A stretch of DNA of 32,398 bases from an uncultured Cellvibrionales bacterium (GTDB taxonomy: Bacteria > Pseudomonadota > Gammaproteobacteria > Pseudomonadales > Porticoccaceae), in contig CAJWCO010000030.1 in NCBI GenBank assembly GCA_913031145.1, positions 1 through 32,398 on the forward strand, read 5' to 3'. A program made the translations under genes and the position numbers. Positions 568 to 19,992 of this stretch are shown piece by piece (the stretch's first letter is position 1; each line of letters begins with the position of its first letter). The notes under the pieces are model-generated. The model was not told where the DNA came from, ran no database searches, and saw only the letters and a program-made list of their open reading frames with translations.

Positions 568-1335
568 TTATTGGTTAACAGTATCGATCAGGGGCGTGAT
601 GAGTCGACCCCAGTGCTGATAGCCCTTTTCATTGAGATGTCCGTCACCAAACGCATTCGCATCTAGCAACGTCGTCTTTAATCGCCCTGTATGATCTGTA
701 AAATGGCTGTATAAGTCCACGAAACGAAAGTTAGCATGAGCCGACGCATCAGCAACAATGGCGTTCACCGTTCGGATTAGCTCGTTTATGGTGGAATTTC
801 GACATGGGAGGATACTTTGTACAATAATTTGCGTTTCGGGACTCCCGCTCGAAATTATTTCTATAATGCGCAAAATATTTTTGGCAGTATATTTAGGCGA
901 AGTAATGCGCACTTCTTCTCGACTAAAGTGTATATTATTCACATCGTTAAAACCAATCATCAAAAAAACGGCGCGCGGTTTAAAGTGCCTAATCTCGCCG
1001 AGTCGAGCGAGCACACCGTCTGTAACATCGCCACCAATACCGCGATTAACAACGCTGGGTTGACCCAGTCGATTACTCCAGTTGCCGCCGCCCTCGGTAA
1101 TACTGTCTCCTATAAACACGATATCTTTACGGGTTAGAGGCGCTTTCTTGAAGGTTGCAATCCGATCTCGGTAGTGCTCGGGTGTTGATAGGTAGTTTAT
1201 CTGTTGAGTTGATGTTGGATATATGGCGTTGTCGTCGCTGGCAACGACGTTATGCGCAGCCTGATTGCAGCCAGTAAAGAATATTGCAATAATTGCAGCC
1301 ACGACGATATTGTAGCACCACGAAACTATAACCAT
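568..1335 (-). CDS. GDSL/SGNH-family esterase lipoprotein
   Basis: The product is 255 residues. The N terminus has a hydrophobic stretch ending in FFTGC, a lipobox, so the protein is probably a lipoprotein. SGNH blocks are present: block I IGDSITEG with nucleophile Ser78, block II GIGGD, block III MIGFNDVN, and block V around DGHLNEKGY with His233. The acid in block V is Asp231, two residues before the His (D-x-H), whereas the family usually has D-x-x-H. Such enzymes hydrolyse acyl esters, often acetyl groups on sugars. The ATG overlaps the TAA of the upstream GH13 gene by one base (TAATG), which points to translational coupling within the leftward operon. The link to carbohydrate deacetylation is inferred from context. 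Confidence 0.85.
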   Translation of the reverse strand: MVIVSWCYNIVVAAIIAIFFTGCNQAAHNVVASDDNAIYPTSTQQINYLSTPEHYRDRIATFKKAPLTRKDIVFIGDSITEGGGNWSNRLGQPSVVNRGIGGDVTDGVLARLGEIRHFKPRAVFLMIGFNDVNNIHFSREEVRITSPKYTAKNILRIIEIISSGSPETQIIVQSILPCRNSTINELIRTVNAIVADASAHANFRFVDLYSHFTDHTGRLKTTLLDANAFGDGHLNEKGYQHWGRLITPLIDTVNQ

Positions 1336-3011
1336 TAAAAAGCGGGCGCCTCATTTATTACGACATAGGTAAAACCGAAGGGTTCGAGCGTGAGTTGAGA
1401 CCCTGGTTTGCTTGTTTGACAGCCCTGACTCGGTGCGTGCTCGAGCACTCGCATTCCATCGGGCAACGTCACTGTTTGGGTACCGTTTTCCAGATTAAAA
1501 TAGCCACGAATTAAAGCGTCACCATAGGTTCTTTCGATGGTTAATAATTCTCGCTCCGCAATAACATCAGGAAAGCTAATGTTGCCATATTTTAAGGCCG
1601 CTTGTGTAGATCGCCAATGATGAAATTGCCGGTAGAAGCTCAGCACAGATTCTTTATTTTGCAGTTGATCGGCTACACTTCGATATAAATGTTCGGGCGG
1701 TATCGGCAACCAAGGTGTTGCTTCAGAAAAACCCCCAAACGGATCATCGGAAACCCACGGCATGGGAGTTCGGCAACCGTCTCGTCCTTTAAAATCAGGC
1801 CAAAACTCGATGCCAAAAGGATCTTGCAGTTGGTGCTGCTCGATATGGGCTTGTGTAAGACCTAATTCTTCACCCTGATAAGTACAGATCGTCCCGCGGA
1901 GTGTTCCCAAGAGCACCGTTAAGAGCTTAGCTAGAGCGTCAGTATTGGAATCATCGACTAGGTCCATGCCCCAACGGCTCACGACGCGGATTACGTCATG
2001 GTTACTTAATGCCCAGCAAGGCCAGCCGTCCGAGACGTGCTGTTCGAAAGCTTCTACCGTTTTTCGGATATGGCAGGCAGAAAATTCATCGCCCAGCAAT
2101 TCAAAGCTATACCCCATGTGGAGCCGATCATTCGCCTGAGTATAGTCCGCCATTGTGGCAAGCGAGTTCTCAGAATTGATCTCCCCCAGTGCGGCGGTAC
2201 CCGGGTAGCGATCTAACAGCGCTCTGAGTTCTTCCAAAAACTCTAAATTCTCAGGTTGAGTGTTATCGTAAATGTGATATTGAGCCGCATATGGGTTATC
2301 GCTCGAAAATCCTCGGCCCGTTCGCTCGCCGACGGGTTTTTCTGGATTGTTACGAAGGTGCGCATCATGGTAACAGTAATTAATTGCGTCTAAGCGGAGG
2401 CCATCAACGCCCTGCGCCAGCCAAAATTCCATCTCACTCAGTATTTGTGCTCTTACCTCGCTGCAGTGGTAGTTAAGGTCCGGCTGGCTTCGAAGAAAAT
2501 TGTGTAGGTAGTATTGTTGTCTTCCTGTATCCCACTGCCATGCAGAGCCACCAAAAATCGATAACCAATTGTTCGGAGGTTTATCGATGTGAGGACTGTC
2601 TGCCCAAACATACCAATCGGATTTCGGGTTGGTTGTGCTTTGGCGGCTTTCAATGAACCAGGCGTGTTGGTCTGAGGTGTGACTGATCACTTGATCAATC
2701 ATGACCTTTAAATTAAGGGCATGCGCACGGTTGATTAATTCGCTGAAATCGTCGCTGGAGCCAAAAAGCGGTGAAACCTGGCGGTAATCGCTGATGTCGT
2801 ACCCAAAGTCTTCCATCGGCGACTGGAAAAAAGGCGAAATCCAGACGGCATCAACCCCCAGACTTGCGACATAATCGAGTTTCTTGGTGATACCACGAAG
2901 ATCACCAACCCCGGTGCCATTTGTGTCCAAAAGACTACGCGGGTAGATTTGATATATCACTGCGCCACGCCACCACTCAATTGGGGCAGATAGATTAAAT
3001 GCGTTCTTCAT
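1335..3011 (-). CDS. GH13 alpha-glucosidase (oligo-1,6-/alpha-glucosidase type), cytoplasmic
   Basis: The product is 558 residues from ATG 3011; an in-frame ATG at 3080 would add 23 residues (basic, not a signal peptide). I prefer 3011 because the family usually starts just before WWRGAVIYQIYPRS. There is no signal peptide, so it acts in the cytoplasm on imported oligosaccharides, releasing glucose from alpha-linked ends. GH13 regions are all present: region I around MIDQVISHTS, region II GLRLDAIN with nucleophile Asp208, region III LGEINSE with acid/base Glu277, and region IV SNHDV with Asp339. The length and the IYPRS start match alpha-glucosidases of GH13 subfamilies 17/23/30. It is first in the leftward arm, divergent from the TonB receptor arm, with a candidate LacI-type operator about 100 bp upstream. 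The exact linkage preference cannot be read from sequence. Confidence 0.93.
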   Translation of the reverse strand: MKNAFNLSAPIEWWRGAVIYQIYPRSLLDTNGTGVGDLRGITKKLDYVASLGVDAVWISPFFQSPMEDFGYDISDYRQVSPLFGSSDDFSELINRAHALNLKVMIDQVISHTSDQHAWFIESRQSTTNPKSDWYVWADSPHIDKPPNNWLSIFGGSAWQWDTGRQQYYLHNFLRSQPDLNYHCSEVRAQILSEMEFWLAQGVDGLRLDAINYCYHDAHLRNNPEKPVGERTGRGFSSDNPYAAQYHIYDNTQPENLEFLEELRALLDRYPGTAALGEINSENSLATMADYTQANDRLHMGYSFELLGDEFSACHIRKTVEAFEQHVSDGWPCWALSNHDVIRVVSRWGMDLVDDSNTDALAKLLTVLLGTLRGTICTYQGEELGLTQAHIEQHQLQDPFGIEFWPDFKGRDGCRTPMPWVSDDPFGGFSEATPWLPIPPEHLYRSVADQLQNKESVLSFYRQFHHWRSTQAALKYGNISFPDVIAERELLTIERTYGDALIRGYFNLENGTQTVTLPDGMRVLEHAPSQGCQTSKPGSQLTLEPFGFTYVVINEAPAF

Positions 3012-3113
3012 GGTGGAAATCTGTCGCTTCTTTTTCTCGTTAGAGTCGCTTTTGGCACAGTGAGTGTAAACTGCGCCCATGAAACTCTATGAGAGCGTCG
3101 GTTGGCAACAAGC

Positions 3114-6435: not shown

Positions 6436-9400
6436 ATGGTGCCAAAACGCAAAGTGACTTTGGCACCTGCTTTTCTTGCATGTTTTATTTTGAGTGCTTG
6501 CGGAGGTGGTGGCGGAGGCGGATCATCTTCCGCGGCGGCGCCACCGTCTTCAACGATTAATCAGCCAACCAATGACGCGGCGGAATCTGGCCTTTTGCCT
6601 GACGAGAATGCCGGGGTTGTAGAGGTTGTTGATAACGCATCGAGCAAACTCAGGTTTGTGGATTCAACCGCAGATTCGGGCTTGTCAGTGACGTTTGGCT
6701 TTAACGTACCCATGGCGAATAACGAAGTCAAATGGATCATGCCGCATGGTATCGCCGCGGGTGATTATGATGGTGACGGCGATGTTGATTTGTTTATTGT
6801 TCGGGGTGATGTGGGGCCAAATTTGCTCTACAGAAATATGGGTGACCTTGTGTTCGAGGAAGTTGCAGAGCTGGCGGGCGTTGCCTACACACGTTCTGCG
6901 TTACGCAATTGGCGACATGGGTCACCGGCATTTGCGGATATGGATGGCGATGGTCATCTGGATCTATTTCTATGTGGGTTGGATGGCGACCCAAATAAAA
7001 TCTTCAAAAATGCGGGTGATGGAACCTTCTCTGATGTAACGCAAGGGTCCGGAATCGATCAAATGCGCGCACCCTATACATCGTCACCTGCGTTTGGGGA
7101 CTATGATTCAGACGGCGATTTAGACTTGGCTCTCGGGCACTGGGGCTCACCGAGGGACTATACCAGTGCGCCGAATGAGACCGAGCATTTGTGGCGAAAT
7201 GACAGCACCGATGAAAAAATAATGTTTACACCCGTTACTTACGGCGCGGGGATTTCGCCCGGCATTCTGACAATTGCGGACTCGCGGATTACGCAGCGCT
7301 CGTTTGATAATACCTTCACTCCGACATTTGCCGATATGAATGACGATGGACACTCTGACTTATTGATGGCAGCGGACTTTAATTTTTCACAAATCTTCAT
7401 CAACAACCAAGATGGAACATTTACCAATGTAACAGACCCACTGGTGATTATTGACGGCAACGGCATGGGGTCGGCAGTGGGTGATTACGATGGGGATGGT
7501 GATCTTGACTGGTTTGTTTCCTCAATTCTGGCGCAGGGGGAAGTCCCACCGCACCTGTCGAGTATTGGTAATCGACTGTATCGCAATGAGGGTGGTGTGT
7601 TGGTAGATGCGTCATCAAGTACAGCGATTGCGAGCGGTGGTTGGGGTTGGGGCAGTTGCTTCTTAGACTATGAAAACGATATGCACCTCGACATTTATCA
7701 AACGAATGGTTGGCCGGAATGGGAAGAGTTGGGAAATTTTCCAACCGATACGACGAGGGCTTTCGTCAACAATGGAGCGGCCTCTTTTACAAACCAAGCA
7801 GAAGATTACGGCTTGAACGATACCGAGCAAGGCCGAGGCGTTGTTTGCGCAGATCTGGATCGCGATGGTGATATCGACATCTTACAGTTGCATGGCAATA
7901 CGGCGAATGCGGTAACACTTTGGGAAAATACCAGTGGGGGTAATTATCTCACCGTTGAGCTTCGAGGGCGGGCGCCCAATACGCAGGCGATTGGCGCCAA
8001 AGTGGTGATTGAAGCGGGACAAAAATGGCAGTTGCGCGAGATGATGTTAGGAAACAATTTCGCATCACACAATCCGGCAGAACAACACTTTGGTCTTGGG
8101 CAGGCCACTCAGATTAATACCCTTCGTATCGACTGGCCAGATGGTACGCGGACCGAGCTCAAAGATCTGCCTGCCAATCAGCATCTGGTCATTACCCAAG
8201 AGGCTGCGACGGCCGCTCGGTTAGTTGTGAATCAGGGTAGCGGAAGTGGGTTTTATCAGTCAGGAGAAGCGATCAGTGTGGCTGCGGCGCAACCTAATGA
8301 CGAACATTATCAGTTTTCACATTGGACGGTTAGCCCGCTGGATATGATCGCTGACCGGTTTGCGAGAGACACTATGTTGATGATACCAGAGGGGTTAACT
8401 TCGGTAACTGTGACCGCAAATTATTTGCCAGGGCCAGCATTTTCGAAGCCCGTTTCGGTAGCGCGGCGGTGGAACGAGATTTTATTGCAGGCGATTAGAA
8501 ACGATTTTGCGCGACCAACAGTCCATGCCAGAAACCTGTTTCACGTGTCGGCAGCAATGTATGACGCATGGAGTGCGGGGTCCAATGAAGCAAACCCATG
8601 GTTGTTGGGTCAAACTCGCGCGAGCCAGTCGTGTGAATACAACCGTGCTTTGGGGGCGACCGATGCTGATTTTAAAGAGCAGGCGCTGAGTTATGCCGCC
8701 TACGGTTTAATTAAACACCGCTTCGCGAACTCTCCCGGAGGGCTTCAAATTGAGCAAGACGCGCATACACTCATGAGTGCATTGGGCTACGACGTGGGCA
8801 ATACTTCAACCGATCTAATGGGTGATTCGCCCGCGGCACTCGGCAATTACATTGCCCAGTGCTATGTTCGTTTTGGTCTGGCAGACGGGGCCAACGAGGC
8901 GGATGATTATGCCAATGTGCACTATAAACCAGTTAACTTGCCGCTGAATCCGGAACTCCCCGGAAATCCAGACATTAGCGACTTGAACCGGTGGCAGCCG
9001 TTAAGCTTGAGCACGTTTATTGATCAATCGGGAAATACCATTGATCGGCAGCCCGAGTTTTTTGGCCCTGAATGGGGCATTGTGTATCCGTTTGCATTGT
9101 CTGAACGCGATGTGACCATTTACCAACGGGATGGCTTTGATTACTGGGTATTTCATGATCCACCGGCCCCGCCAACACTCGACGGATTACTTTCAGACGT
9201 CTACCGCTGGGCATACAGTCTGGTGGCAATATGGTCATCGCATCTGGATCCTACCGATGGTGAGATGCTCGATATCTCACCGGCCAGCATTGGCAATATC
9301 TCTGACTATCCGGCTCGTTTTCAGGAATATCCGCAGTTCTATGCGACCATTAGCGGGGGGGATGTCGGCGCAGGTTACGACATGAATCCGGTGACGGGCC

Positions 9401-10296
9401 AGCCCTACTTGCCGCAACGGGTGCCCCGAGGTGATTACACGCGTGTTCTTGCAGAGTTCTGGGCGGATGGCCCCGACTCAGAAACACCACCGGGGCATTG
9501 GTTTGTTATTCTCAATGGCGTTAACGACCACCCGTTGCTGGAGCGACGATTAGAGGGGGTTGGCGATGTGTTGAATCCACTTGAGTGGGATGTGAAAAGT
9601 TATTTCGCGTTGGGCGGAGCCATGCATGACGCCGCGATCGCTGCGTGGGGTACCAAGGGTTGGTACGATACTATCCGACCTATTTCGGCACTGCGCGCTA
9701 TGGCAGATCGAGGGCAGAGCAGCCACCCAGAGGCACCCTCTTACCATGTTGAAGGTATTCCGCTTGAAGACGGATATATCGAAGTGGTCACGCAAGACGA
9801 TGTCCTAGCAGGTGAGGAAGGCCAACACGAAGGCAAGATAAAATTCAGAGCATGGCGCGGACCGTCATTGATCCAAAATCCAGCGACTGATGTCGCCGGT
9901 GTAGGGTGGATCTTGGCTGAGAACTGGTGGTCATATCAGCGTTCTAGTTTTGTAACGCCCCCCTTTGCAGGCTACGTTTCGGGTCATTCCACTTATTCGC
10001 GTGCTGCAGCAGAAGTGCTCACCGCCATCACCGGAAACGAATACTTTCCAGGTGGTATGAGTCGTTTTGAGATTACAGCCGATGAATTTTTAGTTTTTGA
10101 AGAGGGCCCTTCAGTGCCAATGACGTTGCAGTGGGCAAGCTACCAAGATGCGGCTGATCAGTGCGGTTTGTCGCGTATTTGGGGTGGCATTCATCCACCG
10201 ACTGACGATATTCCGGGGCGCTTAATGGGTCGACAAGTGGGCCGTGATGCGTTTGCACATGCGCGAATGCATTTCAGCGGCACGCTCGTTGAGTAA
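6436..10296 (+). CDS. Giant lipoprotein: FG-GAP repeats + ASPIC/UnbV + vanadium-haloperoxidase-like domain
   Basis: The product is 1286 residues from ATG 6436, preceded by GGAAAG; a TTG at 6424 is a weaker start. The signal ends in the lipobox LSAC followed by a glycine run and a Ser/Ala/Pro linker. Seven FG-GAP/VCBS-like calcium-binding loops of D-x-D-x-D-G-D type lie near residues 109, 165, 219, 296, 348, 410 and 471. An ASPIC/UnbV domain spans about 500-588 and a short beta-rich repeat about 595-665. The last 610 residues match vanadium chloroperoxidase/PAP2 enzymes: K-x6-R-P at Lys1074-Arg1081, SGH at 1182-1184, and SR-x5-H-x3-D at Ser1246, Arg1247, His1253 and Asp1257. All vanadate-binding residues are therefore present. 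The family oxidises halides to hypohalous acid or, in relatives, hydrolyses phosphate esters. The protein is probably surface- or periplasm-anchored. It sits between the receptor and GH97, so it is probably co-expressed with glucan use. Confidence 0.88.
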   Translation: MVPKRKVTLAPAFLACFILSACGGGGGGGSSSAAAPPSSTINQPTNDAAESGLLPDENAGVVEVVDNASSKLRFVDSTADSGLSVTFGFNVPMANNEVKWIMPHGIAAGDYDGDGDVDLFIVRGDVGPNLLYRNMGDLVFEEVAELAGVAYTRSALRNWRHGSPAFADMDGDGHLDLFLCGLDGDPNKIFKNAGDGTFSDVTQGSGIDQMRAPYTSSPAFGDYDSDGDLDLALGHWGSPRDYTSAPNETEHLWRNDSTDEKIMFTPVTYGAGISPGILTIADSRITQRSFDNTFTPTFADMNDDGHSDLLMAADFNFSQIFINNQDGTFTNVTDPLVIIDGNGMGSAVGDYDGDGDLDWFVSSILAQGEVPPHLSSIGNRLYRNEGGVLVDASSSTAIASGGWGWGSCFLDYENDMHLDIYQTNGWPEWEELGNFPTDTTRAFVNNGAASFTNQAEDYGLNDTEQGRGVVCADLDRDGDIDILQLHGNTANAVTLWENTSGGNYLTVELRGRAPNTQAIGAKVVIEAGQKWQLREMMLGNNFASHNPAEQHFGLGQATQINTLRIDWPDGTRTELKDLPANQHLVITQEAATAARLVVNQGSGSGFYQSGEAISVAAAQPNDEHYQFSHWTVSPLDMIADRFARDTMLMIPEGLTSVTVTANYLPGPAFSKPVSVARRWNEILLQAIRNDFARPTVHARNLFHVSAAMYDAWSAGSNEANPWLLGQTRASQSCEYNRALGATDADFKEQALSYAAYGLIKHRFANSPGGLQIEQDAHTLMSALGYDVGNTSTDLMGDSPAALGNYIAQCYVRFGLADGANEADDYANVHYKPVNLPLNPELPGNPDISDLNRWQPLSLSTFIDQSGNTIDRQPEFFGPEWGIVYPFALSERDVTIYQRDGFDYWVFHDPPAPPTLDGLLSDVYRWAYSLVAIWSSHLDPTDGEMLDISPASIGNISDYPARFQEYPQFYATISGGDVGAGYDMNPVTGQPYLPQRVPRGDYTRVLAEFWADGPDSETPPGHWFVILNGVNDHPLLERRLEGVGDVLNPLEWDVKSYFALGGAMHDAAIAAWGTKGWYDTIRPISALRAMADRGQSSHPEAPSYHVEGIPLEDGYIEVVTQDDVLAGEEGQHEGKIKFRAWRGPSLIQNPATDVAGVGWILAENWWSYQRSSFVTPPFAGYVSGHSTYSRAAAEVLTAITGNEYFPGGMSRFEITADEFLVFEEGPSVPMTLQWASYQDAADQCGLSRIWGGIHPPTDDIPGRLMGRQVGRDAFAHARMHFSGTLVE

Positions 10297-10334
10297 TTAT
10301 TTTTTTAATATTTCAGATAAATTTGGAGAGCTAT

Positions 10335-12389
10335 GTGTTAGCAAAGCACGTTTTAATACTGGGTTTGGTGTACGTATTAGCTGGTTGTGGCACTCAACTA
10401 AATCCCGATTTTTCGGTGGTATCACCTGACTCCCGAATCGTCTTTACGGTTATGACTGACGGACTCGGCCGAGTTTACTATCATGTTGTTGTTGATGGCG
10501 AGACCACGATTGAGCCGTCTCGTCTGGGTTTTACGTTTGCTAACGCCGAACCTTTTTTAGCAGGACTATCCGTTCAAGAGGTGAGCCGTGACGAGCGTGA
10601 TGACACGTGGGAGCAGCCCTGGGGCGAGCGGCGGTTTGTAAGAAGCCACTACAATGAGAGTATGCTCGATATAACTGATGGTGAGCGACATGTCGGCCTG
10701 CGGGTTCGTGTATTTGACGATGGGCTCGGATTTCGTTATGAATTTGGTGACGATTTTAATACCGGAGAATTGCTCATAACGGATGAATTAACACAGTTCA
10801 ATTTGGCCGATCATGACAGCCTTGTCCATTGGACCGAGGCCTTTAATGAGGAGCGGTATGAGTATCAATACAATGACGGAAAAATTGCTGATATTGACGT
10901 TGCTCATACGCCCTTAACTGCGAAATTATCAAATCACCGCTACGTGACGTTGCATGAAGCTGCGCTCGTTGATTATTCCAGCTTAGTGCTCAGGCGAGGC
11001 TCTGCCGACACTTTAAATACCGAGTTGGTGGCTGCATATGACGGCATTAAGGTTCGGCGAGAAGGTCCCTTCACGACACCTTGGCGAACGGTCCAGATTG
11101 CCGACTCGTCCGTCGATTTGTTGCGCTCAAATTTAATCTTAAACTTAAACGAGCCGAATAAATTGGGCGATGTGTCTTGGTTAAAGCCGGGCATTTACAT
11201 GGGTATTTGGTGGAGTTTGCATACCGGTGAACAAAGCTGGGAGCAGGGCCCGAAACTTGGTGCGACCACCGAAGAGGCTAAGCGCTATATTGATTTTATC
11301 TCAACACACGGGCTTGATGGATTTTTAGTTGAAGGCTGGAATGTTGGCTGGACCAAAGACTGGTGGAAGAGTAAAGAAAATACCTTTAGTTTTACTGAGT
11401 CTAATCCTCGTTTTGATCTTGAAGAAGTGGCGCATTACGCGCGAGATAAACAGGTCAGCCTTATTCTTCACAATGAAACGGCTGGAGACGTCGAGCATTA
11501 TGAAGAGCAAATGGCGGCGGCCTTCGCTCTGTACGAACGTCTGGGTGTGCAACAACTAAAGACGGGGTATGTCGACTTTGCGAACGGCTACACCCGGCCA
11601 TTGTCGAGCAAGGGCGGGCGAGAGTTCAAATATGCGTACGAATGGAACCATGGGCAGTATGTCATCAATCATATGCAGCGCTCCATCGAAAAAGCGGCCG
11701 AACATAAAATTGCCATCAACATGCATGAGTCCATTAAACCGACCGGACTGCGCAGAACCTACCCTAATTTTATGACGCGTGAGAGCGCGATGGGTCAGGA
11801 GTACAAGGGGTTTGCGCCAAGACACACGACAGTTTTGCCTTTTACACGAATGATGGCAGGCCCATTCGACTATACGCCCGGGATTTTTAATCTTTGGTAT
11901 AAAGGTGAAGGGAATTCTGAGCGTATTAAGTCAACGATTGCAAAGCAATTGGGCTTAATGGTGGTCCTCTACAGTCCTATGCAGATGGCGGCGGATTTGC
12001 CGCGGTTTTATGAGCAAAAGCCTGATCTATTTCAGTTTATCAAAGAGGTTCCCGCAGATTGGGAAGAGAGTATTCCACTCGGCGGTGAGATTGGTGAATA
12101 CGTGGTTTACGCGCGTCAGCAGAGGGGCACCGAAAGCTGGTTTGTCGGGGGAATTACCAACGAAGTGGGACGCACATTCGAGCTTGATTTTGATTTTCTA
12201 GGTGACGGTGAGTATACCGCTCGCATCTATAAAGATGGTGCTGATGCAGATTGGGATACCAATCCCTACAGTACCGTAATTGAATCGATCGCGATTAAAA
12301 GCGCAACAGTCTTACCTATTTATCTGGCGCCAGGTGGCGGTTTTGCGATCAGTATAACCAAAAATAGCAATGATGAAGGTAGCTTGTAA
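10335..12389 (+). CDS. GH97 alpha-glucosidase lipoprotein (SusB-like)
   Basis: The product is 684 residues from GTG 10335. This start is chosen because GGAGAG lies at 10325-10330; an ATG one base earlier runs straight into a stop. The N terminus ends in the lipobox VLAGC, so a lipoprotein is likely. The N-terminal beta-sandwich typical of GH97 is followed by the barrel. Key GH97 segments are HNETAGD, NMHESIKPTGLRRTYPN and TRESAMGQEY; the Glu residues correspond, from memory of SusB of Bacteroides thetaiotaomicron, to the inverting-type catalytic base and acid residues. Inverting members release glucose from the ends of alpha-glucans and act on several alpha linkages. The stop codon is immediately followed by the ATG of the next GH13 gene, so the two are surely co-translated or co-transcribed. 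Confidence 0.92.
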   Translation: MLAKHVLILGLVYVLAGCGTQLNPDFSVVSPDSRIVFTVMTDGLGRVYYHVVVDGETTIEPSRLGFTFANAEPFLAGLSVQEVSRDERDDTWEQPWGERRFVRSHYNESMLDITDGERHVGLRVRVFDDGLGFRYEFGDDFNTGELLITDELTQFNLADHDSLVHWTEAFNEERYEYQYNDGKIADIDVAHTPLTAKLSNHRYVTLHEAALVDYSSLVLRRGSADTLNTELVAAYDGIKVRREGPFTTPWRTVQIADSSVDLLRSNLILNLNEPNKLGDVSWLKPGIYMGIWWSLHTGEQSWEQGPKLGATTEEAKRYIDFISTHGLDGFLVEGWNVGWTKDWWKSKENTFSFTESNPRFDLEEVAHYARDKQVSLILHNETAGDVEHYEEQMAAAFALYERLGVQQLKTGYVDFANGYTRPLSSKGGREFKYAYEWNHGQYVINHMQRSIEKAAEHKIAINMHESIKPTGLRRTYPNFMTRESAMGQEYKGFAPRHTTVLPFTRMMAGPFDYTPGIFNLWYKGEGNSERIKSTIAKQLGLMVVLYSPMQMAADLPRFYEQKPDLFQFIKEVPADWEESIPLGGEIGEYVVYARQQRGTESWFVGGITNEVGRTFELDFDFLGDGEYTARIYKDGADADWDTNPYSTVIESIAIKSATVLPIYLAPGGGFAISITKNSNDEGSL

Positions 12390-14243
12390 ATGAATAACGT
12401 AAAGGCATTAAAAACGTTACTAGTAACCTTTTACATGAGTTTTTCCTCATTGGGTAGCGCAGGCGTTGACCGCATCGACCCGCCGAATTGGTGGGCTGGG
12501 ATGGCGGCAAGTGATCTTCAACTGATGGTTTATGGCAATGGCATGCGTGGTTGCCAAGTATCGACAAACTATCCGGGCGTGGCGGTTGATAGCGTAACTC
12601 GCGGCGATAGCCAGAATTATTTATTTATTAATCTGACCTTGGCAGAGGCGGTCAAGCCGGGGGGTGTAGACCTTCAGTTTGTGTGTGACGGCAAGGTTTT
12701 GCATGATGCCAGTTATCCATTACTGGCGCGACGCGAGGGTTCTTCTGAGCGTCAAGGATTTTCGTCAAAAGATGTAATATATCTTGTCGTGCCTGACCGT
12801 TTTGCGAATGGCGACCCGAGTAATGATCAGGTCGCGGGGGTTATCGAGGGGCCTGATCGCAACGATGATTATGGTCGTCATGGCGGCGATATTCAGGGCA
12901 TTATCGATCATCTGGATTATCTTGAGGCGCTCGGAGTAACGCAACTGTGGTTAACGCCTGTGCTTGAAAATAATTACCAACATTCAACCTACCACGGTTA
13001 TGCCATTTCCGATTTGTACGCAGTTGACCCAAGAATGGGCTCTAACGCGCTGTATGCCGAATTAGCCGACAAGGCTGCGGAAAAAGGAATCGGGATCATC
13101 CATGATTTAGTACTCAACCACATTAGTATTGCACACCCATGGATTGGTGATATCCCCGAAAAAGACTGGGTTCACCATGATCGAAAATTCGTCCGGACGA
13201 ATGACCGACACGAAGCTATTATTGACCCTCATGCAAGTGCATCGGATAAGGAAAGAATGGTCACAGGTTGGTTTGATCATCATATGCCTGATCTGGATCA
13301 GAGAAATCCATTGCTCGCGCGATATTTGCAACAAAACGCCATTTGGTGGGTAGAGACGGCGGGTCTTTCGGGTTTCCGAATTGATACTTGGCCTTATTTG
13401 CATGCATCGTTTATGCCGAGTTTCATTGATGCAGTCATGTCAGAATACCCCAACTTAAATATTGTGGGCGAGGAGACAGACTGGAACTCGCGAATTGTGT
13501 CGTATTGGCAGCGCGGCAAGAAAAATGCTGACGGATTTCATGCCGGCGTACCCTCGATGATGGACTTCCCTCTGACCCACGCGATCATTGATGCTTTTAG
13601 TGAAGAGGAAAGTTGGAATACCGGGTTATCGCATTTATACAGAACGCTGGCGAATGATTCGGTGTATGCGGATTCCAGTAACCTCATTGTGTTTGCTGAC
13701 AACCACGATCGCGATCGGTTTCTGACAGCAATTGATGACCAGTTAGATCGTTTTAAGATGGGTATTATATTTCTTATGACGACTCGAGGAATACCGCAAA
13801 TTTATTACGGAACAGAGTTGGCGGCATCGCATCGCGGCCAGCGTGGTGATGGCATTCGGCGCAGTGATTTTCCAGGTGGCTGGGCGGGCGATCGTAAAAA
13901 TGCGTTTACTGGCGAACGACTCAGTACCGATGAGCGTGACACGCTGAAATTCTTCAAGAAACTACTCAACTGGCGTAAGACCGCGCCCGCAATCCACGAT
14001 GGTAGACTGGTTCATTTTGGTCCGCTTGAGGGAATCTATGCATACTTTCGCATTGCCGATAATCAAACGATTATGGTGTTAATAAACAATGCGAAGACCT
14101 TACAATCTGTTGATTTTCAGCGTTTTAAAGAAGTCATTGGCGCATCAAAAATGGCCAGTAATGTTCTTGAAAGCCAGATGATTGACTTGACGAAACCCTT
14201 TTCAATACCTAAAAAATCAGCTGTTATCTTTGAGCTGCAATAA
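12390..14243 (+). CDS. GH13 alpha-amylase/neopullulanase (SusA-like), exported
   Basis: The product is 617 residues. A signal peptide (MNNVKALKTLLVTFYMSFSS, probable cut after SLGSA) sends it to the periplasm or surface. An N-terminal cyclomaltodextrinase-type beta domain (about 27-125, starting VDRIDPPNWWAGM) precedes the catalytic barrel (VIYLVVPDRFANGD). Catalytic residues are visible: nucleophile Asp332 in GFRIDTW, acid Glu361 in VGEETDW and Asp440 in DNHDRDR. Region I is HDLVLNH. Enzymes with this layout open starch, pullulan or cyclodextrins into maltose-range sugars. The start codon directly abuts the GH97 stop; GAAGG lies about 12 bases upstream, inside the GH97 gene. Together with GH97 it forms the SusA/SusB-like pair of the locus. 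Confidence 0.93.
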   Translation: MNNVKALKTLLVTFYMSFSSLGSAGVDRIDPPNWWAGMAASDLQLMVYGNGMRGCQVSTNYPGVAVDSVTRGDSQNYLFINLTLAEAVKPGGVDLQFVCDGKVLHDASYPLLARREGSSERQGFSSKDVIYLVVPDRFANGDPSNDQVAGVIEGPDRNDDYGRHGGDIQGIIDHLDYLEALGVTQLWLTPVLENNYQHSTYHGYAISDLYAVDPRMGSNALYAELADKAAEKGIGIIHDLVLNHISIAHPWIGDIPEKDWVHHDRKFVRTNDRHEAIIDPHASASDKERMVTGWFDHHMPDLDQRNPLLARYLQQNAIWWVETAGLSGFRIDTWPYLHASFMPSFIDAVMSEYPNLNIVGEETDWNSRIVSYWQRGKKNADGFHAGVPSMMDFPLTHAIIDAFSEEESWNTGLSHLYRTLANDSVYADSSNLIVFADNHDRDRFLTAIDDQLDRFKMGIIFLMTTRGIPQIYYGTELAASHRGQRGDGIRRSDFPGGWAGDRKNAFTGERLSTDERDTLKFFKKLLNWRKTAPAIHDGRLVHFGPLEGIYAYFRIADNQTIMVLINNAKTLQSVDFQRFKEVIGASKMASNVLESQMIDLTKPFSIPKKSAVIFELQ

Positions 14244-14267
14244 CGGCTAAACTTTGGAGCTACCCCC

Positions 14268-16076
14268 ATGCTATTTGCCAGATTTCGCGCCCTAATGACG
14301 GGTCGTCAGGTTCAAAAAAAAATGACTAAGCATCGGGCCGAGGGTGTTTGCGGCGCTGTTGTATTGCTGATCCTTTGCAGTTTTGATGCGCACAGCCAAC
14401 AGCGAACATTCACTAATCCGATTCTCAATGGCGGTTATCCAGACCCAAGTATCTGTCGCGATGGCGAGGACTTTTACATCGTGAACTCGTCTTTTGAATA
14501 CTTCCCCGGGTTGCCTCTTCATCACAGTAAAGATCTGGTCAATTGGGAGCTTGTTGGTTATGGCCTGCACCGTGCTGAGCAGGCGAGTGGTGCCGTGAAT
14601 CTTGTCGACGTGCAGTCTAATGGGGGTATTCATGCACCGACTTTGCGGTGTCATGAGGGTCGGTTTTACATTATAACGACGAATGTTTACACCCCCGCTA
14701 AAAGCGGTGAACCGACACAAATGGTCAATTTTGTGATCACAGCGGATACCATTCAAGGTCCTTGGTCGCAACCAAACGTCATTGATAATGCGCCAGGCAT
14801 TGATCCAGACTTGTTTTTTGACGACGACGGCCGCGTCTGGTACGTCGGCACGCACTCGCCTGAAGAGCCGGCATATGGCGGCGAAGGAGAAATTTATCTT
14901 CAGGAATTGAACCCTAAAACATGGCAGTTTATGGGCGATCGGCATTTTTTATGGCGCGGCGCGGTGAAGTTCGCCACATGGGCTGAAGGGCCGCATCTTT
15001 ATAAAAAAGATGGGCGTTATTATCTATTGGTGGCCGAAGGTGGTACTAGCTTTAACCATGCTGTTACGGTGGCGGTGAGTGATCAAATTACAGGGCCTTA
15101 TGACGGAAATCACAGAAACCCTATCCTAACCTCAAGACATCTTTCGTATGACAATTGGGTGCACAGTACCGGACATGCAGACATGGTCGAATTGGCGGAT
15201 GGGCGCTGGTATATGGTAGCGTTGAGCAAGCGCGGTGATATTGAAGGTGAGACTGACGACGGCAGGCGGGGTGCTAACATGGGTCGTGAAACGCACTTGC
15301 TGCCTGTGGTTTGGGAGCGTGTGCCATTTAACTGGGTGCCGGAGGAAAAGCGAATTTTGTGGCCTGTCGTGGCCCCGCTAACCGGAAAAGTGGAGCGTGA
15401 TAATCCGCTGCCTTTCAGTGATAAACCTCAGTATCGTGCGCTGGCTTGGGCAGATAATTTCGATCAATCTAAATTAAAATTGGATTGGAATTTTCGACGT
15501 GTTCCAGAGAACAAAGTTTATTCTTTGACCGCTCGGCCGGGTTATTTGCGACTTTACACACGGCCGGAGCAACCGATGGACCGTGCGCGGGCAAGTTTGA
15601 TGGGGGTGCGCCAACCGGAAAGCGATTTTACCTACCGTGTCAGTATGGCGTTTATGCCTGCGGCGAACGATGCGTCTACTGACATGGAAGCGGGCATAAA
15701 TCTGTTTCAAAAAGATAATAATTACATCGCTTACACGCTGTTACGTCGCGGCCAAGCGTTTGAATTGCAATTACAACTTGCCGAGCGTGATGAATCACTG
15801 AGCGTGCTGAAAATTAAACGATTGTCTGATTATAAAGGTACGATCCAGTTGGAAGTTGTATCCAAAAATGATCGCTACGTTTACCGGTACTCGCTAGATG
15901 GCGGTGATTCGTGGTTAGATTTTGCAGATAGTGATGCAAACTTACTGGTCAGTCGAGGCTATACCGGCGCGTATTTTGGATTATATAGCAGCAGCCGTGG
16001 GCGGCAAGTTAACGCCCATGCAGATTTCGATTGGGTCCGTTATCAGGCCTACGAACGTCGAAAAGAGGGCCTGTGA
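14268..16076 (+). CDS. GH43 glycosidase (beta-xylosidase/arabinofuranosidase type) with C-terminal lectin-like domain
   Basis: The product is 602 residues from ATG 14268 (GGAG eight bases upstream); ATG 14322 would give a neater signal peptide (VCGAVVLLILCSFDAHSQ) but lacks a ribosome binding site. The five-bladed GH43 domain has Asp59 in YPDPSICRDG (base), Asp179 in GIDPDLFFDDDG (pKa modulator) and Glu240 in WAEGPHLY (acid). From about residue 390 a concanavalin-like beta-sandwich follows (ALAWADNFDQSKLKLDWN onward), typical of GH43 subfamilies 10-12. Those enzymes remove xylose or arabinose residues, which is unexpected beside alpha-glucan enzymes. It lies 24 bases after the GH13 gene and 4 bases before the esterase. 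The true substrate is uncertain. Confidence 0.9.
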   Translation: MLFARFRALMTGRQVQKKMTKHRAEGVCGAVVLLILCSFDAHSQQRTFTNPILNGGYPDPSICRDGEDFYIVNSSFEYFPGLPLHHSKDLVNWELVGYGLHRAEQASGAVNLVDVQSNGGIHAPTLRCHEGRFYIITTNVYTPAKSGEPTQMVNFVITADTIQGPWSQPNVIDNAPGIDPDLFFDDDGRVWYVGTHSPEEPAYGGEGEIYLQELNPKTWQFMGDRHFLWRGAVKFATWAEGPHLYKKDGRYYLLVAEGGTSFNHAVTVAVSDQITGPYDGNHRNPILTSRHLSYDNWVHSTGHADMVELADGRWYMVALSKRGDIEGETDDGRRGANMGRETHLLPVVWERVPFNWVPEEKRILWPVVAPLTGKVERDNPLPFSDKPQYRALAWADNFDQSKLKLDWNFRRVPENKVYSLTARPGYLRLYTRPEQPMDRARASLMGVRQPESDFTYRVSMAFMPAANDASTDMEAGINLFQKDNNYIAYTLLRRGQAFELQLQLAERDESLSVLKIKRLSDYKGTIQLEVVSKNDRYVYRYSLDGGDSWLDFADSDANLLVSRGYTGAYFGLYSSSRGRQVNAHADFDWVRYQAYERRKEGL

Positions 16077-17048: not shown

Positions 17049-17153
17049 ATGCATGGTCAAAACCGCTTCATGCAGCGTATGCCAGCGTTTTTTTGCTCTG
17101 GTAAGCGAGGTGTTAGCTCCATGCAACCGATGAGAGCTCAGACCGTCTCATGA
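17049..17153 (+). CDS. Candidate 34-residue leader ORF coupled to the MFS gene
   Basis: ATG 17049 has a strong ribosome binding site (GGGAG, 17036-17040) eight bases upstream. The frame has 34 codons (starting MHGQNRFMQR, ending RAQTVS) and its TGA overlaps the ATG of the MFS transporter as ATGA. The MFS gene itself lacks a well-placed ribosome binding site. I recognise no family; the peptide is basic, has no membrane segment, and may matter only as an act of translation that opens the downstream start. Confidence 0.45.
   Translation: MHGQNRFMQRMPAFFCSGKRGVSSMQPMRAQTVS
17130..17151 (+). promoter_or_regulatory. Hairpin covering the MFS start codon and its weak ribosome binding site
   Basis: ATGAGA (17130-17135) pairs with TCTCAT (17146-17151). 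The 5' arm holds the only GAGAG-like ribosome binding site of the MFS gene (17132-17136) and the 3' arm contains the first two bases of its start codon. Ribosomes finishing the leader ORF at 17153 would pass through and open it. Confidence 0.45.
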
Positions 17154-18679
17154 GCGGTCACCCGACACTGAATTTTTGGCAAATTTGGAACATGTGTTTC
17201 GGGTTTATGGGCATTCAATTCGGCTTTGCGTTGCAAAATGCCAACGTCAGCCGAATCTTTCAGACGCTCGGTGCTGACTATAACAACATGACAATCCTTT
17301 GGCTGGCAGCGCCTGTTACAGGGTTGATCGTGCAACCGATCGTAGGTTATTACAGCGACAAAACCTGGGGATCCTTGGGACGCCGCCGACCCTATTTTCT
17401 GTACGGTGCGATTGCCGCGAGTATGGCTCTCCTAGTGATGCCTAATTCGCCGACGTTGTGGATCGCTGCGGGAACTTTGTGGGTTTTGGATGCATCCATC
17501 AATATAGCTATGGAGCCGTTCAGAGCATTTGTTGGCGATATGCTGCCCCCTTCTCAACGCGGCCTCGGTTATGCGTTGCAGAGTTTTTTTATTGGGGTGG
17601 GTTCGGTGGTGGCCTCTGCGTTGCCATGGATCATGTCTAATGCATTCGACGTGAGCAGCACGGCGGCTGCCGGCGTGATTCCAGATTCCGTAGCGTATGC
17701 ATTTTACATCGGTGCGCTGTTTTTTCTAGGCGCAGTTTTGTGGACGGTCTTTACCACCGACGAATATTCACCCGAACAATTACTCGCCTTTCAAACGCAG
17801 CACGAAAAGATCCCGAAGCCAACAACAGGCCAGCCCAGCCGATCGCGACTTGAGGCTGCGTGGTATTTAAAGCTAGGCATTCTTTGCCTATTTTTAGGCT
17901 TCATTGCTACTGGATTGGTAGGGTATTACATCGAGGCCTTAGATCGTAATCTGTTTATTATGACAGTCGGGTTAAGCGTATTTGGGCTATTACAAATCGT
18001 TGCAGGCTTTTTAAAACATCGCGGTTTGGGTGAGCATGGTTTTGCCCAAGCTATGGATGATTTGTTCACCATGCCCGCCGCAATGCGAAAACTCGCGGTA
18101 GTACAGTTTTTTAGCTGGTTCCCCTTTTTTGTAATGTGGAGCTCAACCACATTGGCGGTCACCTCGTTTCATTACGGTACCTCAGATACGACCAGCGCTG
18201 CTTACAATTCGGGGGCCGATTGGGTGGGTATATTGTTCTCGATCTACAATGCAACGGCGGTTTTAGCGGCGATTGCGATTCCCTTAATGGGGCGATACCT
18301 ATCGTTGAAGCAGATTCATATGACAAACTTGTGCTTGGGTGGTGCCGGGTACGTGAGCTTTGTTTTTATTCAGGATCCACATTGGTTGGTGATACCTATG
18401 ATCGGAGTAGGCTTTGCTTGGGCATCGATTCTCTCCATCCCCTACGCGCTGCTGTCGACGTCATTGCCCTACCAGAAAATGGGACTTTATATGGGTATTT
18501 TTAACTTTTTTATTGTCTTGCCGCAGATTCTCGCGGCGAGTATTTTAACATTTCTTGTAGAGCGATTTTTCTCGGGCGAACCAATTTATGCGTTGGTCAT
18601 TGGTGGTTGTAGTTTATTTCTAGCGGGCGCATTGACGCTGCGTGTCGAGTCCCCCACGGCTAATGAATCGAATGCATAA
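17150..18679 (+). CDS. MFS disaccharide transporter (maltose/sucrose:H+ symporter type)
   Basis: The product is 509 residues with about 12 membrane segments. NFWQIWNMCFGFMGIQFGFALQNANVSRIF at the N terminus and GYYSDKTWGSLGRRRPY near residue 70 (the MFS loop 2-3 signature D-x4-G-x-L-GRRRP) mark the SLC45/GPH-like group that imports maltose, maltodextrin or sucrose with protons. It would carry products of the periplasmic enzymes into the cytoplasm, where the GH13 alpha-glucosidase acts. It lies 106 bases after the esterase, overlaps a small leader frame, and converges with the LacI regulator, whose stop is 14 bases beyond its own stop. Maltose is the most likely substrate from context. Confidence 0.9.
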   Translation: MSGHPTLNFWQIWNMCFGFMGIQFGFALQNANVSRIFQTLGADYNNMTILWLAAPVTGLIVQPIVGYYSDKTWGSLGRRRPYFLYGAIAASMALLVMPNSPTLWIAAGTLWVLDASINIAMEPFRAFVGDMLPPSQRGLGYALQSFFIGVGSVVASALPWIMSNAFDVSSTAAAGVIPDSVAYAFYIGALFFLGAVLWTVFTTDEYSPEQLLAFQTQHEKIPKPTTGQPSRSRLEAAWYLKLGILCLFLGFIATGLVGYYIEALDRNLFIMTVGLSVFGLLQIVAGFLKHRGLGEHGFAQAMDDLFTMPAAMRKLAVVQFFSWFPFFVMWSSTTLAVTSFHYGTSDTTSAAYNSGADWVGILFSIYNATAVLAAIAIPLMGRYLSLKQIHMTNLCLGGAGYVSFVFIQDPHWLVIPMIGVGFAWASILSIPYALLSTSLPYQKMGLYMGIFNFFIVLPQILAASILTFLVERFFSGEPIYALVIGGCSLFLAGALTLRVESPTANESNA

Positions 18680-18693
18680 TTGAGGGGTATCGG

Positions 18694-19746
18694 TCAGGTG
18701 CTCCTGTTTTCGGGACGCGCCCCGCAAGACTGTCTTACAATTAGGGTTGGTTGGACCAACATAGATTCAATGGACTCACCATTGATCAGTTTGATGAGAT
18801 TTTCGACCAAAAGTTTTCCTGACAAATTGGTGTCCTGATGGATTGTCGTTAGGGGTGGGTCAATGTGTGACGCGGTAACAATGTCATCAAAGCCTATCAC
18901 TGCGATGTCCTTCGGCACGCTAAGACCACGGCTTTTTATTGCATTCACCGCGCCAATCGCCATTAAGTCACTCCCCGCAAATAAGGCAGTACACGAGGTG
19001 TTAAGACTCATTAATTTAAGCGTTGCATCGTAACCAGAAGACTCGAGATTATCAGAAAAAACCAATAATTGTGGGTCCGGTTCGACACCACGCTCGCGCA
19101 GTGCGCGCTGGAAGCCCTCGTAGCGCAGCAAATACTCCGGATAATGACGAGATGCCTCGCCAATAAACGCGATGTTACGATGTCCCAGGTCTAGCAGATG
19201 GCGACAGGCCAGATAGCCGCCGAGCGCATTATCGCAGCCAAGTGAATGGCCAAGTTGCTGCGCGCCAGTGGGTCCCCAGATCATAAAATGTGCGTTTGCC
19301 TTATTGAGTTGAGTGAGTTTTTCTTGATAGCTGATAAAGTCACCATAGCCAAGCAATATCAAACCGTCGGCGCGATGAGATAACTCATAGTCGCTATGCC
19401 AATCGTTAGACAATTGCTGAAACGAGACCAACAGATCATAGCCTGCAAGGGCTGCAGATCGAGTAATACTGCCCAGCATCGCCAAAAAGAAGGGGTTGAT
19501 TTGCGAGTCATCGAGTGTGGGGTCTTCAAAAATCAGTAGGGCCAAGGTTTTCGTTGTTTTAGAGCGCAGATTAGCCGCATTTCTGTCTACGTGGTAATTC
19601 AGTTGTTGCGCAATGGCTTGTACTTTCAGGCGAGTTTTCTCGCTCACATGAGGGCTGTTGCGGAGTGCTCTTGAGACGGTTGGCTGAGATACGCCTGCCA
19701 TGTAAGCAATATCGAAAGATGTATGCGTTTTGTTTTTTTTCGTCAT
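18694..19746 (-). CDS. LacI-family transcriptional regulator of the glycan locus
   Basis: The product is 350 residues from ATG 19746, chosen because TTGAGG lies just upstream; an upstream in-frame start at 19782 would add 12 residues before the usual start. The N-terminal helix-turn-helix is clear (SFDIAYMAGVSQPTVSRALRN, residues about 9-29), with a hinge helix containing NAANLRS near residue 55. The rest is a periplasmic-binding-protein-like effector domain (LALLIFEDP, HRNIAFIGEASRHYPEYLLRYEGF, VIGFDDIV). Such proteins usually repress sugar genes until a sugar binds. It is placed at the end of the locus, convergent with the operon. Candidate binding sites are the palindromes at 3114-3127 and 3254-3267; I saw no such site before this gene itself. 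Confidence 0.92.
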   Translation of the reverse strand: MTKKNKTHTSFDIAYMAGVSQPTVSRALRNSPHVSEKTRLKVQAIAQQLNYHVDRNAANLRSKTTKTLALLIFEDPTLDDSQINPFFLAMLGSITRSAALAGYDLLVSFQQLSNDWHSDYELSHRADGLILLGYGDFISYQEKLTQLNKANAHFMIWGPTGAQQLGHSLGCDNALGGYLACRHLLDLGHRNIAFIGEASRHYPEYLLRYEGFQRALRERGVEPDPQLLVFSDNLESSGYDATLKLMSLNTSCTALFAGSDLMAIGAVNAIKSRGLSVPKDIAVIGFDDIVTASHIDPPLTTIHQDTNLSGKLLVENLIKLINGESIESMLVQPTLIVRQSCGARPENRST

Positions 19747-19992
19747 CGAAGCCTCAAGATAGCCGCGTGCCACAACGATCATCAGTATTAATAGGAAAAG
19801 AATAACGCAACTTTGACCGACTGTATAGAAGTGATGTCGGGGGCGGATTTCGCAGTAAGGTGGGGCGTTTATTAATCATAACCGGATTATGGCGCGCTAC
19901 CCTCATCACCCGGTTTAAATTGCTGTGTCTTGGCGTTTAACGTCTGTATCCTAGCGACCTTGAGTCCACGACATACAGGCTGATACTTCACG

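Follow-up and report, generated by a model that had tools for sequence, protein, structure and literature searches.

The window analyzed here is a stretch of 32,398 nucleotides from an uncultured, marine-type Cellvibrionales bacterium (contig CAJWCO010000030.1), and the gene under study lies on its forward strand at 6436..10296, stop codon included. The open reading frame (ORF) is intact, its coordinates and length were verified, and it encodes a predicted lipoprotein of 1286 residues that joins an FG-GAP propeller, an ASPIC/UnbV domain, an InlB-type domain, and a vanadium haloperoxidase (VHPO). All parts are given below on the same strand. The predicted signal peptide (6436..6501), read by eye, carries the lipobox LSAC with Cys22, and a Gly/Ser tract follows. 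The seven-loop β-propeller covers approximately residues 103–504 (6742..7947) in Pfam and in the structural model. FG-GAP_3 matches in four stretches (8.7e-39), and seven calcium-type loops are located at residues 110, 168, 222, 300, 350, 411, and 473, the sixth of which (DYENDMHLD) is a looser fit than the other six. The ASPIC/UnbV domain occupies residues 518–584 (7987..8187; UnbV_ASPIC, 1.6e-20). Calcium-type loops, propeller, and UnbV_ASPIC domain together place the fusion in the CRTAC1 or FG-GAP plus ASPIC-UnbV class. Between the two halves, at approximately residues 602–663 (8239..8424), Pfam detects a divergent InlB B-repeat-like domain (Flg_new_2, PF18998, 3e-5) that the initial annotation had missed; a stand-alone VHPO gene (L104) likewise carries this domain close to its start. 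The VHPO domain spans residues 669–1286 (8440..10293) according to Pfam, a PDB profile match, and the model. It contains a DUF6851 match at residues 704–855 (9.3e-9) and a VCPO_2nd match (1.6e-7, above the cut-off of that family) with its best stretch at residues 1061–1110. The initial annotation had proposed a search for FG-GAP, UnbV, and PAP2 (PF01569) families; the first two were found, and PF01569 was not among the Pfam matches of the window fusion at 0.001.

The vanadate signature of VHPOs, K-x6-RP...SGH...SR-x5-H, is present in the fusion sequence. Its first motif comprises W1071, K1074, and R1081-P1082 (9646..9681; K1074-x6-RP), the second P1175, F1177, and S1182-G1183-H1184 (9958..9987), and the third S1246-R1247-x5-H1253-x3-D1257 (10171..10206). 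The SGH is preceded by V rather than P, so there is no PSGH. We take W1071, K1074, and R1081 to be the equivalents of W350, K353, and R360 of vanadium chloroperoxidase (VCPO), P1175, F1177, S1182, and H1184 those of P395, F397, S402, and H404, and R1247 and H1253 those of R490 and H496. Conservation was tabulated from 89 C-region ORFs minus two partial ones, leaving 87 rows with the window (L003 and L004 repeat L081 and L032). All 87 aligned rows agree at the pocket positions W, K, R, P, P, S, G, H, and R from the VCPO set. The F397 and H496 equivalents are each present in 86 of the 87 (the remaining rows have an X and a gap, respectively), and at the final Asp of the third motif one row has a gap and another has Gly.

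An AlphaFold model of residues 88–1286 has a mean pLDDT of 86.8 and a pTM of 0.78; the model alignments A5 and A6 held 61 and 34 rows. The N-terminal part of this model superimposes on CRTAC1 (9etn) with Z 39.3 over 438 aligned residues (root mean square deviation (rmsd) 2.4), and CRTAC1 is also the sole PDB sequence match of that part at 0.1. The last part superimposes on VHPOs, with Z 31.1 for 9l8x and 31.0 for NapH1. The C-terminal domain was also modeled alone (pLDDT 86.8, pTM 0.91). It matches the VHPO XhnO11 (9l8x) with Z 30.9 and rmsd 2.8 over 430 aligned residues, NapH1 (3w35) with Z 30.5, VIPO (4usz) with Z 28.2, and fungal VCPO (3bb0/1vni) with Z 23.1. The best PAP2 acid phosphatase reached Z 11.6 over 202 residues. 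The Z scores of 23–31, together with the VCPO_2nd match, give the modeled domain the VCPO-type two-bundle fold of VHPOs. These data predict that the C-terminal part folds as a VHPO, with the pocket residues kept in its sequence. The VHPO-like domain with vanadate ligands that had been claimed in the initial annotation is borne out by the motifs, the domain match, and the fold; the test named there, a vanadate pocket in the C-terminal part, was run in part, and it returned a VHPO fold in the model and pocket residues in the sequence. The single 1286-residue lipoprotein, its seven calcium-type loops, and its UnbV domain were likewise correctly described there, the lipobox being a prediction.

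The gene is the second of an operon-like run. A TonB-dependent receptor of the TonB-Xanth-Caul family (TIGR01782; 3461..6412, +) lies directly upstream. Downstream on the forward strand are genes for a glycoside hydrolase (GH) of family GH97 (10323..12389), a GH13 enzyme with cyclomaltodextrinase-type N and C domains (12390..14243), a GH43 enzyme (14268..16076), all three assigned by Pfam, an esterase (PF00756; 15922..17043) whose longest-ORF start (TTG) overlaps the GH43 gene, and a sugar-type transporter of the major facilitator superfamily (17150..18679). The position in a starch-type operon between the receptor and GH97, as first annotated, was verified. A LacI-type regulator is encoded on the reverse strand at 18694..19782, and a GDSL hydrolase (568..1335, −) and a second GH13 enzyme (1335..3080, −) are divergent from the run. 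The genome of the window has 24 Plug matches in 2.2 Mb.

The fusion recurs widely. A scan of one genome per species (84,980 species) yielded 505 stretches with the pattern, and 500 of them encode a relative. The best 80 stretches, representing 75 distinct loci, were used; they were picked by similarity to the full fusion, so fused genes are over-represented among them. Even sampling was provided by a class sample of 369 gammaproteobacterial genomes and a sample of 296 Bacteroidota genomes. Full-length fusions are found in gammaproteobacteria, in metagenome-assembled genomes (MAGs) of alphaproteobacteria (L078, L084), and in Bacteroidota, for example Marinoscillum, Reichenbachiella, Flavivirga, and Wenyingzhuangia. 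Lipobox-like N termini are seen in many of the gammaproteobacterial members but not in every one, and the Bacteroidota relatives L089 and L100 have a sorting domain of the type IX secretion system (T9SS). Mobile carriage gained no support: among 72,556 plasmid records there are six matches at 1e-30, none covering 80% of the fusion protein. The two parts also occur as separate neighboring genes. Same-strand two-gene versions are present in Paraglaciecola (L055), Thalassotalea (L068), Cognaticolwellia (L071), Gilvimarinus (L077), and a Catalimonadaceae strain (L100), further same-strand neighboring pairs are found at L180, L181, L190, and L191, and the pairs at L083 and L104 are divergent. A VHPO tree of 91 rows, from which near copies, short rows, and X-rich rows had been excluded, was built by a quick method, and two of its long branches are flagged. 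On this tree the fused label requires 10 changes compared to a shuffled mean of 28.5, and at least four changes are forced by the starred branches; the tree does not separate the direction of joining from that of splitting. Because the change between fused and neighboring genes is repeated, the sequence comparison suggests that the propeller/UnbV and VHPO parts work together.

Neighboring genes were compared at 57 representative loci, the window among them; relatives with ≥85% identity had been removed beforehand, as had L003, L004, and L016. All 51 first-upstream and 53 first-downstream genes and 107 of 167 further neighbors, mostly the longer ones, were scanned, and the first 25 families entered the Pfam tallies. 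Receptors were counted with iterated hidden Markov models (HMMs) at 55 loci, leaving aside the window and L005; the count is a lower bound, as the receptor of L045 was missed. A TonB receptor/SusC gene lies directly upstream on the same strand at 9 of the 50 loci with a visible upstream gene, compared with 2 of 251 other genes at the same loci (Fisher p 2e-6). Within five genes, a receptor is found at 22 of 55 loci and SusD at 7 of 55. Glycan-type neighbors (SusD, a carbohydrate enzyme, or a sulfatase) accompany at least 13 of the 57 representatives, a lower bound given the set of neighbors scanned. The window and L081 have GH97, GH13, and GH43. The others are GH3 at L055, a porphyranase at L082, GH10, glucuronyl esterase, and GH97 relatives at L087, a sulfatase, pectate-lyase-like DUF4955 proteins, and SusD at L089, GH16, GH43, and SusD at L100, SusD at L086, L091, L094, L095, and L098, and a sulfatase on the opposite strand at L032, which was read in L108 of the same contig. 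Linkage of the fusion to an importer and glycan enzymes is present beyond one genome (the window and L081/L107), at a minority of loci. The link of the VHPO fusion to uptake loci is real but partial.

The glycan differs from locus to locus. Judging by the neighbor genes, the polysaccharides involved are not the same, which makes it unlikely that the enzyme acts on one particular glycan bond. When the window proteins served as blastp queries, L081 was the one representative of the 57, apart from the window itself, with the GH97-GH13-GH43 set; at L087 there are relatives of GH97 and a protein similar to GH43 but no GH13, and L068 has a distant GH13. An α-glucan-specific role is therefore unsupported. 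The tie to α-glucan proposed in the initial annotation is not supported, since a glycan context is seen at a minority of loci and varies among them (porphyranase, GH10/glucuronyl esterase, pectate-lyase-like, GH16/GH43); the refuting condition named there, a fusion never found beside glycan genes elsewhere, did not come true. In the genus of the window, a full-length fusion is encoded by 3 of 14 genomes. Window-type GH97 occurs in G000, G005, and G012, each time with GH13 and GH43, and the fusion accompanies it in both genus genomes with a visible upstream side; the G012 contig starts inside GH97. G005 has the fusion and the same glucan genes in an arrangement that differs from that of the window. 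A second TonB receptor-GH97 locus without the fusion is present in the genus (L213 and L214, in G009 and G012).

Haloperoxidases have been described in algae and fungi and in certain bacterial pathways; the vanadate enzymes among them, the VHPOs, use peroxide and a halide to form hypohalous acid. We favor, at a probability of roughly 0.6, the reading that the fusion is an exported, membrane-anchored vanadium-dependent haloperoxidase, docked by its propeller, that makes hypohalous acid at the cell surface and acts around the food. Its N terminus suggests export and anchorage in the outer membrane. The propeller/ASPIC part, which is CRTAC1-like and probably stabilized by calcium, would serve as the docking part and may hold the enzyme close to a partner at the surface, be it the TonB receptor, a glycan, or something else. 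With vanadate bound, the C-terminal domain would use H2O2 to convert bromide or chloride into hypohalous acid immediately outside the cell. The fusion is probably made together with the glucan-uptake genes in the window locus. The enzyme is less likely to cut the α-glucan itself than to modify the environment of the food; it may remove peroxide or oxidize or halogenate phenolics, competitors, or signals. The class of the enzyme is surer than its role. If the reading is true, a conserved, surface-tethered haloperoxidase tied to nutrient importers would link halogen chemistry to the uptake of carbohydrates by marine bacteria and provide a definite bacterial origin for hypohalous acid and organohalogens, and the poorly understood FG-GAP/UnbV domain would gain a testable enzyme partner.

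Several observations weigh against this reading. No receptor lies directly upstream at 41 of the 50 loci, and glycan genes were seen near a minority of loci only; in G010, of the same genus as the window, the fusion is beside a sulfatase and away from the glucan genes. The VHPO domain occurs in 8 of the 369 class-sample genomes, window included, and three of these matches are partial; the other four full-length copies are one fused and three alone. In the Bacteroidota sample it occurs in 18 of 296 genomes, the center genome included. Besides the copy of the center genome, 17 genomes have 21 VHPO copies, of which 2 are fused (one, L182, with a weak FG-GAP score), 4 are adjacent to an FG-GAP/UnbV gene within 500 bp, and 15 are neither (in one, L186, UnbV is the next gene at a gap >500 bp). 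The model does not fix the relative orientation of the propeller and VHPO parts, and the solved VHPOs are only distantly similar in sequence (62 bits for the best PDB profile match). A scan of 17 window proteins revealed no enzyme that makes peroxide. A rival reading is a surface haloperoxidase for defense or interference, its hypohalous acid directed at competitors, signals, or biofilm, that sits in the glucan operon by chance or through regulation only. In its favor, the contexts vary widely and many loci have no glycan gene in view, some genomes have several paralogs or tandem arrays, and the distribution is patchy (full-length fusion in 3 of 14 genomes of the genus, VHPO domain in 8 of 369 of the class, three of these partial matches). 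Against it stand the enrichment of TonB receptors directly upstream and the fact that the congener G005, despite a rearranged locus, has the fusion together with the glucan genes found in the window. We consider it rather unlikely, and yet the strongest of the competing explanations.

An accessory depolymerizing VHPO, attacking the polysaccharide or linked phenolics by oxidation or halogenation, is improbable. It would suit the SusD, carbohydrate-active enzyme, or sulfatase genes near at least 13 of the 57 representatives and the FG-GAP lectins of the PVL type among the Foldseek matches of the model (4tqm, 2bwm, 5mb4, and 4up4, all matches of fold), but the glycans are chemically different, many loci have no glycan gene in view, and depolymerization of this kind is not known for VHPOs, although no search was aimed at it. 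Oxidative attack on starch, one of the roles first suggested, found no support of its own. Dephosphorylation of a phosphorylated glucan by a PAP2-superfamily phosphatase, another of those roles, is still less probable. PAP2 enzymes and VHPOs share the signature, and weak PAP2 matches below the cut-off are present in the relatives L100 and L104. According to the title of entry 3bb0, apo-VCPO can dephosphorylate. The fold comparison (Z 11.6 over 202 residues for PAP2 versus 30.9 over 430 for VHPO), the VHPO-type domain families above the cut-off, and the conserved VCPO-type W and F side residues speak against a phosphatase. The artificial joining of two genes by an assembly or frameshift error is suggested only by the relatives with adjacent two-gene versions. 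It can be dismissed, since the full-length fusion is found in many independent assemblies and G+C content by codon position shows no break across the domain junction. The observation made in the initial annotation is confirmed and its interpretation partly supported.

Related FG-GAP/UnbV proteins of approximately 40% identity are fused to a di-heme peroxidase (CCP_MauG) at L007:1-3045, L008:1-2850, and L217:9877-13194. The last is on an Alteromonas macleodii plasmid, where the fusion adjoins an α-hydroxy acid oxidase and a TonB receptor. At L288 a CCP_MauG gene is beside an FG-GAP/UnbV protein. In these fusions, as in the window, a related FG-GAP/UnbV part is joined to an enzyme of a peroxidase family, but the heme domain is unrelated and N-terminal, whereas the vanadium enzyme of the window is C-terminal. 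UnbV matches occur in 46 of 274 genomes of a class-wide sample, window included. From the 80 UnbV places besides that of the window, 40 regions were taken, long frames first (23 of ≥880 residues) and then 17 more. HMMs found no VHPO or CCP fusion among their 51 UnbV ORFs and one CCP neighbor (L288), and a general rule that FG-GAP/UnbV pairs with peroxidases is rejected on these counts. Ten close relatives of the module without a VHPO comprise three CCP fusions, one CCP neighbor, and six with neither; they come from G014, G067, plasmid L217, G172, G023 (two copies), G081, G275, G217, and G304, and were drawn from several searches rather than one draw (G172, G275, and G217 are also within the 40 regions). 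Tentatively, the CRTAC1-like FG-GAP/ASPIC module could be a surface dock for peroxide-using enzymes in some marine bacteria, joined repeatedly to VHPOs and separately to di-heme peroxidases and placed in TonB-dependent uptake loci, where a tethered hypohalous-acid generator might be a standard accessory of some glycan-uptake systems.

The bacterial VHPOs NapH1, NapH3, and XhnO11, Curvularia VCPO, and Zobellia VIPO resemble the fusion in predicted fold and pocket signature. The family of the window differs from them in its low sequence similarity, its partial fusion or pairing with FG-GAP/UnbV, and its enrichment beside TonB receptors. The N-terminal part shares its propeller and ASPIC fold with CRTAC1 (cartilage acidic protein 1), which is not known to carry an enzyme domain; in the bacterial protein this module is fused to a VHPO. 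Searches of the open-access literature found no description of a haloperoxidase with UnbV or FG-GAP, or of a vanadium haloperoxidase with TonB. For vanadium haloperoxidase and polysaccharide utilization they gave one match, a reference-list entry in PMC9296495. Each domain is already known, and these searches are consistent with novelty of both the three-part architecture and the link to TonB receptors. The initial annotation had likewise regarded the design as undescribed, which agrees with that literature, although the architecture is not rare in genomes.

Two Trp (flavin) halogenase genes at L055:6680-9673 and one at L071:8158-9699 lie between a TonB receptor and the split UnbV-VHPO pair, so that two unrelated types of halogenating enzyme share one gene run. 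As in the window, a halogenating enzyme is on one strand with the receptor; these are flavin enzymes that accompany rather than replace the pair. Tandem arrays of FG-GAP/UnbV-VHPO fusions are found in related gammaproteobacterial MAGs (L063, L064, L067, L069, and L070). In some cases they adjoin a protein of approximately 1170 residues; the copy of this protein that was scanned (L067:1752-5258) had no Pfam match at 1e-5. Short decayed remnants with stops are present in two congeners (G003:C8:87588-87893 and G005:C48:14477-14706), where a piece like residues 101–142 adjoins a piece like 1209–1282, the traces of a lost fusion copy. In the Bacteroidota VHPO at L184:8229-10922, the enzyme domain is followed by three stretches of MopE-type copper-binding motifs and a T9SS tail. 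Tandem Bacteroidota VHPO genes at L178:7657-10851 and 11455-15348 have long C-terminal extensions before the T9SS tail, mostly without a Pfam match at 1e-4. Longer fusions of 1760 and 1879 residues, with several hundred extra residues, are encoded at L054:9872-15151 and L085:9710-15346.

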